The position numbers were made by a program, and so were the translations under genes. 64,000 nt of DNA from Chloroflexota bacterium (GTDB taxonomy: Bacteria; Chloroflexota; Anaerolineae; JAAEKA01). The stretch spans positions 1-64,000 of the forward strand of contig JAYELL010000057.1 in assembly GCA_034717495.1 (NCBI GenBank). Direction: 5' to 3'. Under the pieces are notes generated by a model, which searched no databases, was not told the DNA's origin, and saw only the letters and a program-made list of their open reading frames with translations. This document shows positions 1,320 through 3,903 of this stretch, piece after piece (the first letter of the stretch is position 1; each line of letters opens with the position of its first letter).

Positions 1320-2123
1320 ATAATCACCAGCCGCCGCAATCGGCGCATCGTCGAGGTGCGAAAATTGAACCAGCGCAAACACAGGCAGCGCCAGGGCCGT
1401 TTTTCGGTCGAGGGTGTGGCATTGTTGGAGATGGCGTTGGCAGCGGGCGTGCAGCCCCAGGAAGTCTACTTCAGTGAAGAACAGCTGCAGTTGAGCGACG
1501 GTGGAGGCAGGGTGTTGGCGCGCCTGGCTGCCACAGATGCTGAGTTGGTGGCTGTTTCCCTGGAGGTGATGAACTCCCTGGCCGATCGCGGGATTCCCGA
1601 GGGAATCGTATCCCTGTTTCCCTTGTTCGAAACCCCGCTGAACGATCTGCGTCTGGCAGGAGATGGCCTGGTATTGCTCATTGATCGGCTCCAGGATCCT
1701 GGAAACCTGGGCACGCTAATCCGCACCGCCGACGCCATCGATGCAGCCGCGGTGGTGTTGATCGAGCCCTGTGTGGACCCCTTCGAGTCCAAGGCGGTGA
1801 GAGCGACTATGGGATCTCTCTTCAATGTGCCTTTGATGCGCACCACCGATGTGCCGGCTCTTTTCCAGCGACTTGCGGCATTGGGGCTTTCGACCGTGGC
1901 TGCTGATGCCCATCGCGGGGAAGCCTGGGGCGCCAACTTGTGGCAGGGTTCGGTGGCATTGGTGGTCGGGCATGAGACGCGCGGCCTGACGGAGGATGTC
2001 CTTCCCTACGTCGATGCCTGGGTCAGTCTTCCCATGGTGGGCAAGGCGGAATCGCTCAATGTGGCGGTAGCAGGCGGTGTGCTGATGTATGCCTGGCTGA
2101 AGGCGAACGAGCGCCATGGTTGA
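1320..2123 (+). CDS. TrmH/SpoU family RNA 2'-O-methyltransferase
   Basis: The SPOUT-fold catalytic region is clear: LIDRLQDPGNLGTLIRTADA (motif 1, with the catalytic-type arginine), then LVVGHETRGL (motif 2) and SLPMVGKAESLNVAVAG (motif 3, knotted SAM site). The N-terminal VRKLNQRKHRQRQGRFSVEG is the substrate-binding domain typical of TrmH/RlmB-like enzymes that methylate ribose 2'-OH in rRNA or tRNA. The target nucleotide is unknown. The nearest standard start is GTG at 1356, but the family N-terminus (ITSRRN..) is encoded from ATA at 1320, seven bases after a near-perfect GGAGGGGAGGG. I therefore place the start at ATA 1320. The 3' end overlaps the next gene by eight bases, implying translational coupling. 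Confidence 0.85.
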   Translation: MITSRRNRRIVEVRKLNQRKHRQRQGRFSVEGVALLEMALAAGVQPQEVYFSEEQLQLSDGGGRVLARLAATDAELVAVSLEVMNSLADRGIPEGIVSLFPLFETPLNDLRLAGDGLVLLIDRLQDPGNLGTLIRTADAIDAAAVVLIEPCVDPFESKAVRATMGSLFNVPLMRTTDVPALFQRLAALGLSTVAADAHRGEAWGANLWQGSVALVVGHETRGLTEDVLPYVDAWVSLPMVGKAESLNVAVAGGVLMYAWLKANERHG

Positions 2124-3903
2124 TATCCTTGTTATCGGAGGTGCCTCTCTCGACCGTTTGCATTTCGCAGGCAGGACAGCACAGTCACCCGGTGGCGCCG
2201 GGCTCTATACCGCTGCTGCCGCGCACCGGGCGGGTGCCACTGTGGCGATGTTGGCGCCCAGACCTGACCCTGTTCCTCGGGCATTGGAACCAGCGGCAGA
2301 GCGGATTGACTGGATAGGGCCTCTTGTTCCTCCCAAGGACCTTCCACATTTCGAGATTGCCCATTATGGCGGCGGCAGGGCTGAACTGGTCACGGCTCGC
2401 TGGGGAGCAGAGGCCAGACTGACACCGCAAGAGCTTCCCGGTGATCTCTCAGGCTTTTCAATAGTCCACATTGCCGCTCTGGGATCTGCTGAACGGCAAC
2501 TTGCGTTCCTACGCTCCTGCCGACTGCGTGGCGCATCCCGTATCTCGGTTGGTACCTATGCCAGGGTTGTTGTCGGAGAAACAGAGACAGTAAGGGCCTT
2601 GCTCCGTGAGGCTGATCTGTTTTTCATGAACGAAAACGAGGCTGCTGTCCTGTTCGCCGATGTGGTGGATGCCAGAACCCAGCCGGGGAAGCTTCTCTTC
2701 ATCACACTGGGCGAGAAGGGCGCCAGGGTTTGTCAGGGAGATCGTGTCAGCGAAATAAGCCCTGTGTCTGCACGGGAACTGGATCCAACGGGTGCCGGCG
2801 ACACCTTCTGCGGAACCACACTGGCCCTCCTGGCACGTCACGAGCATCCGGTACTTGCCGCCGAAATGGCCACCGCTCTGGCTGCGCAGGTCATCGAGAG
2901 TGTCGGTCCTTCAGCCCTGTGGCGAACCGACCCGCTGCCCAGGCCGGCAGCAGATCGAAGGGTGATCGTCAATCCGGTGCAGGTAGACAACGTTGCGGCC
3001 TTGATCGCAGACCTGCCGGAGGTGCAGGCTTTTGACTTCACCGGTCCTGAGTATCCTCCAGAAGGACACCCGGCTACCCTTGGCTATTTCTTCACAGCAA
3101 CGCTGCAACAATTCGGTTTTTGGTCTGTTGTCGATGATCACTACAGCCACCCGCTGTTGGCGCCCCTGGATGGGGCTGTACGCAAAGGTTCCGACTATCT
3201 GTGGCAAAGCTGGTTGCACCCCCTGGCAGGTGACCGGTCTTTTTATCATGCTTCCCGCCAGGTCACCCTGACTCCCGCGGACCTGAGTGCACTCTTCCGC
3301 GCCGACGATGGCTGCGATCCCATGCCAGCGCAGGCACTGCACCTGGAGGTAGCCCGATCCTATGGGCGGGATATGATGACCATGGCCCATACCCCGGCCG
3401 GGATGGTGCAGACAGCCAACCGATCGGCTGCACCTCTGGGAACCTTCCTGTCCAGCCTCGATCACGTGGGCGGCTACAAGGAAGACCCGCTGCGCAAGAA
3501 AGCAAGTCTGCTGGCGTTGATTCTGGCCCAGCGTCCTGAAAGGTTCCTGCGACCTGGCCCGTCTGAGGCAATGCCACCCATCATCGATTATCACCTGATG
3601 CGCTCCTGTTTGCGCACCGGGCTTCTGGAGGTGACCGATCCTTCGCTGGAGCAGGCTTTGATCCAACGACAGGTATTGGACGCGGCCTCAGAGCGAGCTG
3701 TGCGCCGGGCAGCCTACCGGGCAGTCAACTCGCTCGTGCCACTTTCCGGAAAGTCGATGGGTGCAGTGGACTGGTTTTTCTTCAACGCTCGTCGCCGCTG
3801 TCCGGAGATGACGGAGCCGGACTGTTCAGCATGCGCGGTTGATCCGGTGTGTGCTCAGCGCAAAACGTTGTTTCAGCCTGTGTTTCGTACAACCTGTTAT
3901 TGA
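2116..3903 (+). CDS. PfkB-family sugar/nucleoside kinase fused to a QNG1/DUF2419-like queuosine-salvage glycosylase domain
   Basis: Residues 1 to about 275 form a compact ribokinase/PfkB domain: GGASLDRL at the start, FFMNENEA mid-domain, and the anion-hole and catalytic-base motif DPTGAGDTF with D229. Residues 280-595 resemble the DUF2419/QNG1 family, which hydrolyses queuosine 5'-phosphate to free queuine. The recognised pattern is FGFWSV (about 333-338), LFRADDG, PIIDYHLMRSCLRTG (D491 matches the ADYRLPQ block of human QNG1), ERAVRRAAYRAVN and VDWFFFNARRR (D552). The C-terminus adds C562-x7-C570-x2-C573-x5-C579, close to the Fe-S ligand spacing of endonuclease III-like glycosylases. A kinase making the 5'-phosphate next to the hydrolase that uses it is metabolically sensible, but this is inferred from remembered alignments only. 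It overlaps the upstream methyltransferase by eight bases. Confidence 0.68.
   Translation: MVDILVIGGASLDRLHFAGRTAQSPGGAGLYTAAAAHRAGATVAMLAPRPDPVPRALEPAAERIDWIGPLVPPKDLPHFEIAHYGGGRAELVTARWGAEARLTPQELPGDLSGFSIVHIAALGSAERQLAFLRSCRLRGASRISVGTYARVVVGETETVRALLREADLFFMNENEAAVLFADVVDARTQPGKLLFITLGEKGARVCQGDRVSEISPVSARELDPTGAGDTFCGTTLALLARHEHPVLAAEMATALAAQVIESVGPSALWRTDPLPRPAADRRVIVNPVQVDNVAALIADLPEVQAFDFTGPEYPPEGHPATLGYFFTATLQQFGFWSVVDDHYSHPLLAPLDGAVRKGSDYLWQSWLHPLAGDRSFYHASRQVTLTPADLSALFRADDGCDPMPAQALHLEVARSYGRDMMTMAHTPAGMVQTANRSAAPLGTFLSSLDHVGGYKEDPLRKKASLLALILAQRPERFLRPGPSEAMPPIIDYHLMRSCLRTGLLEVTDPSLEQALIQRQVLDAASERAVRRAAYRAVNSLVPLSGKSMGAVDWFFFNARRRCPEMTEPDCSACAVDPVCAQRKTLFQPVFRTTCY

Follow-up and report, generated by a model that had tools for sequence, protein, structure and literature searches.

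In a 64,000-nucleotide stretch of DNA from a Chloroflexota bacterium (hereafter the window), the open reading frame at positions 2116..3903 of the plus strand starts with ATG and encodes 595 amino acids, and it is an intact PfkB kinase joined to a remote yet genuine homologue of Qng1/DUF2419. In this study, we demonstrate the identities of both domains, the conservation of both catalytic sets, the breadth of the family across bacterial phyla and the likely single origin of the fusion. On balance, the protein is probably a bifunctional salvage enzyme, in which the PfkB kinase would act before the Qng1-type glycosylase and queuosine would be the most likely substrate. The original prediction, whose coordinates, motifs and cysteine spacing all proved exact, had proposed that this one polypeptide could salvage queuine from queuosine. 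The pairing of a kinase with a Qng1-type domain stands, whereas direct use of the released queuine is not supported, given the preQ1-type TGT of this genome.

The kinase domain (aa 1-269; 2116..2922, plus strand) matches PF00294 over aa 18-268 (E 3.8e-19, 69.6 bits against a cut-off of 25.8), and its GAGDTF sequence, the anion-hole/catalytic base motif that contains D229, lies at residues 226-231 (2791..2808, plus strand); the complete PfkB kinase of the original prediction is confirmed. Conservation was counted throughout in 61 full-length fusions, in 80 complete C-termini and, for comparison, in 20 canonical bacterial Qng1 sequences. Among the full-length fusions GAGD, NxxE and D13 are kept: N172-x-x-E175 (2629..2640, plus strand) is found in 61/61, the GAG triplet in 61/61 and the following aspartate in 58/61, with GAGE replacing GAGD in three Anaerolineaceae members (L079, L099, L101). 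The top PDB match of the kinase profile, over its full span, is the C. tepidum nucleoside kinase 3kd6 (E 3.7e-17), which also ranks second in the Foldseek search with the full-length model, where the fold matches of the kinase half are ribokinases and nucleoside kinases. This best match suggests that a nucleoside would be the phosphate acceptor. The fold, the GAGD and the NxxE are the same as in the PfkB nucleoside kinases of C. tepidum (3kd6), M. jannaschii (MJ0406, 2c49) and B. thailandensis (3b1n); the differences are the fusion to a glycosylase and the GAGE of three members. These three share their lineage with close relatives that have no kinase (L115, L117), and it is possible that kinase decay is in progress there. 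Another genome (G008; L011/L177) encodes a kinase that stands alone and shares 50% identity with the fused domain; no Qng1-like partner was found for it, and its contig ends about 180 nt past the kinase.

For the C-terminal domain (aa 284-595; 2965..3900, plus strand), a PDB search with the single sequence gave no match, and the window protein scores under the 25-bit cut-off of PF10343 (Q_salvage), at 11.4 bits for the whole protein (E 0.23, over aa 318-442) and 13.4 bits for the domain alone (E 0.056). Four relatives (in G031, G422, G203 and G374) score above this cut-off, and the family is matched by 7/7 aligned relatives, weakly to clearly (best E 1.9e-9). Human QNG1 (7ugk) is matched in the PDB by an alignment of seven relatives (E 1.5e-5) and by one of 32 relatives (E 7.5e-8), and hhalign aligns the family profile with 20 bacterial Qng1 over 280 columns (probability 96%, E 1.7e-9). 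In the fold search with the AlphaFold model of the domain (pLDDT 92.5), the top eleven PDB matches are all Qng1 chains (TM 0.71-0.80, E 2e-11 to 2e-10, Foldseek), and AGOG (1xqp), EndoIII and MutY come next at a large distance. The original prediction had recognized the DUF2419/QNG1 pattern in this half of the protein, and the profiles of the relatives and the unambiguous fold search agree in placing it with Qng1 and not with an unrelated family. In the full-length model, both domains are confident (pLDDT 94.3, pTM 0.93).

The profile alignment brings K199, D231, D298 and W302 of Qng1 together with K461 (3496..3498), D491 (3586..3588), D552 (3769..3771) and F556 (3781..3783), all on the plus strand. 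K461 is conserved in 61/61 fusions, and the two aspartates that had been singled out in advance, D491 (61/61) and D552 (60/61), are the equivalents of D231 and D298. In Qng1, D298 and W302 are active-site residues (PMC11592518), and the PDB holds structures of the S. thermophilus mutants D231N (7ulc) and K199C (7u5a). The fusion thus shares with Qng1 (PF10343; PDB 7u91, 7ulc, 7ugk) the fold, the equivalents of K199, D231 and D298, equivalents of E267 and R271 by spacing, and the C-terminal R-T-x-x-Y (3886..3900, plus strand; RTIFY in Qng1), in which R, T and Y are found in 61/61, 60/61 and 61/61 fusions and each in 20/20 Qng1. There are also clear differences. The identity in structural alignments is 16-18%, the fusion has an additional four-cysteine loop and the N-terminal kinase, and residues invariant in the 20 Qng1 sequences (K233, Q236, W302 and Y315-H316-R317, S. 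thermophilus numbering) are replaced: FADYK..PQ becomes IDYH..RS, YHR becomes FQP, and the tryptophan at position 302 (20/20) becomes F556 (F in 61/61). Because of these replacements, we file the domain as a sister subfamily and not as Qng1 itself, and queuosine specificity can only be inferred. A third Qng1-like type, of 329 aa with 26.9 bits against PF10343 and eight cysteines among its final 80 residues, is encoded beside clpX in the window genome (L002:1351-2337, minus strand; G000:C81, about 25.6-26.6 kb) and occurs also in L012-L015, L017-L019, L044 and L045; it forms a clade apart from both Qng1 and the fusion.

The cysteine loop C562-x7-C570-x2-C573-x5-C579 (3799..3852, plus strand), which had been predicted as an extra feature relative to QNG1, occurs in 61/61 full-length fusions, in 80/80 complete C-termini and in 0/20 canonical Qng1. 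Its position, after the last glycosylase helices, resembles that of the Fe-S loop of EndoIII and MutY. The classical spacing of the latter is C-x6-C-x2-C-x5-C, and the x7 of the fusion is therefore not an exact match. With the HhH-GPD Fe-S DNA glycosylases EndoIII (2abk) and MutY (1rrq) the fusion has in common the helical glycosylase fold and a C-terminal four-cysteine loop, and with AGOG (1xqp) the helical fold, but these fold matches are weak (E 3.6e-3 to 1.7e-2) and the catalytic set of the fusion is that of Qng1. Judging from the conservation of these putative ligands and from the analogy with EndoIII and MutY, it is probable that the fusion binds a [4Fe-4S] cluster.

Relatives were sampled by one scan of GTDB genomes, which gave 80 loci: 71 fused in-frame, one split across two overlapping frames, three truncated where their contig stops and five stand-alone. 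Their taxon labels cover at least eight phyla (Chloroflexota, Pseudomonadota, Fidelibacterota, Acidobacteriota, Gemmatimonadota, Actinomycetota, Bacteroidota and Calditrichota); a ninth label, Coprothermobacterota, falls within Anaerolineales and could reflect faulty binning. In a quick tree, the members form a single clade (SH-aLRT 98) that lies next to the eight-cysteine type and away from canonical Qng1, and the stand-alone copies are nested in the fusion clade at three places. Because of this nesting, the kinase would have been lost and not gained repeatedly, and the tree favours one fusion origin with three kinase losses. Among 400 Chloroflexota genomes the fusion is rare and canonical Qng1 common (99 of them match PF10343, most with canonical Qng1), and a search of a plasmid collection gave no match.

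The queuosine pathway was checked in seven genomes (the window genome, three others with the fusion, two with stand-alone copies and one with the kinase only). All seven (7/7) carry tgt, queA and queG, and none (0/7) carries queF; for queC, the window genome gave no match, and five of the other genomes gave matches that were weak and partial only. The expectation that the window genome would carry tgt and be without de novo genes is thus borne out for tgt, queC and queF. The TGT pocket is GGLAVG in three of the seven genomes, including the window genome (GGLAVGE), which is the preQ1 type under the rule that distinguishes preQ1 from queuine pockets (PMC11570991). With queA, queG and a preQ1-type TGT, the cell would therefore build Q on the tRNA, starting from preQ1; it is unlikely to use queuine directly, and any queuine released would have to be converted first. 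Q is made in all seven genomes tested, with scavenged preQ1 apparently needed; the transporter QPTR is found in 5/7, the window genome being without it. Based on this, direct queuine salvage of the Chlamydia/eukaryote type by this genome is not supported. A QueL-like lyase is one possibility for the re-use of queuine, but TIGR03963, a QueE-like radical-SAM model which we take as a (doubtful) proxy of QueL, gave no match over its cut-off, and no queuine lyase was identified. The QueK/QueL system of C. difficile would resemble the fusion in that it releases queuine from the nucleoside in a cell that uses preQ1; the differences are that QueK belongs to an unrelated nucleosidase family without a described kinase step (PMC11130926) and that no QueL was identified here. 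Two other loci touch on this pathway. In G374, a divergent TGT-like protein (L173:6996-8090, minus strand), with GGWPLD where TGT has GGLAVG, is encoded no more than about 6 kb from the gene of a queuosine-precursor transporter, and G203 has a second copy. In G422, QPTR adjoins an ECF transporter set (L175:1647-5898, minus strand) with an S component of the CD3073 family (under the model cut-off), plausibly a locus for the uptake of Q precursors.

In the mechanism that we propose, the PfkB domain would phosphorylate the 5'-OH of a modified purine nucleoside with ATP, most likely queuosine that is taken up or stems from the turnover of tRNA. Using K461, D491 and D552, the Qng1-type domain would then split the resulting 5'-monophosphate at its N-glycosidic bond into ribose 5-phosphate and the free base, which would be queuine in the case of Q. 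A [4Fe-4S] cluster, either structural or sensitive to redox state, would probably be bound by the four cysteines, as it is in EndoIII/MutY. We consider the coupling of phosphorylation to hydrolysis likely, and the chances of queuosine being the main substrate evenly balanced. The preferred substrate of Qng1 is queuosine-5'-monophosphate (PMC11592518), and a comparable architecture is known from the eukaryotic PsuKG, which fuses a pseudouridine kinase to a 5'-phosphate glycosidase (PMC9247573). The logic is the same, as a PfkB kinase makes a 5'-phosphate that the fused glycosidase cleaves, but in PsuKG the PsuG part is N-terminal and cuts a C-glycoside, whereas here the partner is of the Qng1 type and C-terminal. 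Phosphorylation followed by hydrolysis fits the domain order, the single fusion origin, the match to 3kd6 and the few operons with a transporter or 5'-nucleotidase.

These operons are lineage-limited, and no universal operon was found among the related loci. In Acidobacteriota, a concentrative nucleoside (CNT) transporter is encoded directly upstream of the fusion in two loci (L104, L119); in a third (L125) it is also upstream, but a single gene separates it from the fusion. In Gammaproteobacteria, a secreted UshA-like 5'-nucleotidase is encoded directly upstream in L077 and L092 and directly downstream on the opposite strand in L074, and homologues lie about 4 kb from the fusion in L057, L065 and L066. 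Such neighbours fit nucleoside uptake followed by intracellular re-phosphorylation. No conserved Q-gene neighbour was found across the related loci, and no preQ1 riboswitch in the related loci scanned or in the first 12 kb of the window. In the window itself, a SpoU-family RNA methyltransferase gene (1356..2123, plus strand; PF00588 E 3.4e-35) overlaps the fusion gene by 8 nt, as had been noted in the original prediction. The RNA-modification context drawn from this overlap had to be dropped, as no homologue of this gene was found in the other related loci. Elsewhere, a 6-O-methylguanine-DNA-methyltransferase-domain gene lies directly upstream of the fusion in L069, L072, L073 and L075 and about 450 nt upstream in L064; in L073 its motif is PWHR, as in alkyltransferase-like proteins, and not PCHR.

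Several observations count against queuosine salvage. Besides the preQ1-type TGT, the changes at Qng1-invariant residues and the lack of a preQ1 riboswitch or a conserved Q-gene neighbour in the loci searched, five relatives have no kinase (three losses) and three carry GAGE, so that the kinase is dispensable somewhere, and the nucleoside-salvage neighbours are limited to few lineages. The same two-step chemistry could act on another 7-deazaguanine nucleoside, such as that of preQ1 or preQ0, whose base would feed the preQ1-type TGT directly. The window genome's need for preQ1 (neither queC nor queF detected, and queA, queG and a GGLAVG TGT present), QPTR in most of the genomes checked and the altered Qng1 pocket residues speak for such a substrate, but Q itself is the main 7-deazaguanine nucleoside from tRNA turnover and the nearest solved structures are Q enzymes, and we regard this variant as unlikely. 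A clean-up of damaged purine nucleosides such as 8-oxoguanosine, phosphorylated and then de-glycosylated by an HhH/Fe-S glycosylase fold, would explain the Fe-S-type loop, the next structural neighbours (AGOG, solved with 8-oxoguanosine in 1xqp, EndoIII and MutY) and the DNA-repair-like gene (alkyltransferase domain PF01035, or AlkZ-related) that adjoins the fusion in two other lineages. In the fold search, however, Qng1 outranks every DNA glycosylase by a wide margin (E 2e-11 against 4e-3), and the repair neighbours are lineage-limited, which makes this role improbable.

Just as improbable, or slightly more so, is that the domains have unrelated jobs or that one regulates the other, with a kinase acting on a sugar or ribose and no channelling of a nucleotide. 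The kinase losses, the GAGE variants, the separate kinase homologue in G008 and the closest NCBIfam names of the kinase, which are sugar kinases all far under cut-off, would agree with this, but a single ancient fusion has been retained in at least eight phyla, one confident model covers both domains and the best match of the kinase is a nucleoside kinase. An assembly or gene-calling artefact that joined two adjacent genes we reject as having next to no probability: most relatives are metagenome-assembled, but the full-length fusion recurs in many independent assemblies, including L068 (CP070785, labelled a chromosome) and the single-contig genome G031.

The literature searched, which did not extend to the main Qng1 papers, contained no queuosine kinase and no PfkB-DUF2419 fusion, and priority is not established. 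Qng1 prefers a 5'-monophosphate, yet the free nucleoside is a likely source for salvage, and a fused kinase conserved across phyla is a concrete candidate for the queuosine kinase step, in a fusion that mirrors the PsuK-PsuG logic of pseudouridine. Through the four-cysteine loop, Qng1 moves closer to the Fe-S DNA glycosylases, and one may ask what use a salvage enzyme would have for a cluster. In the fullest form of our reading, which we put forward tentatively and as rather doubtful, the fusion may be a new bacterial salvage enzyme for the queuosine nucleoside, able to form queuosine-5'-phosphate and to hydrolyse it within one chain, redox-responsive through its Fe-S cluster, that would feed preQ1 scavengers through a further step.
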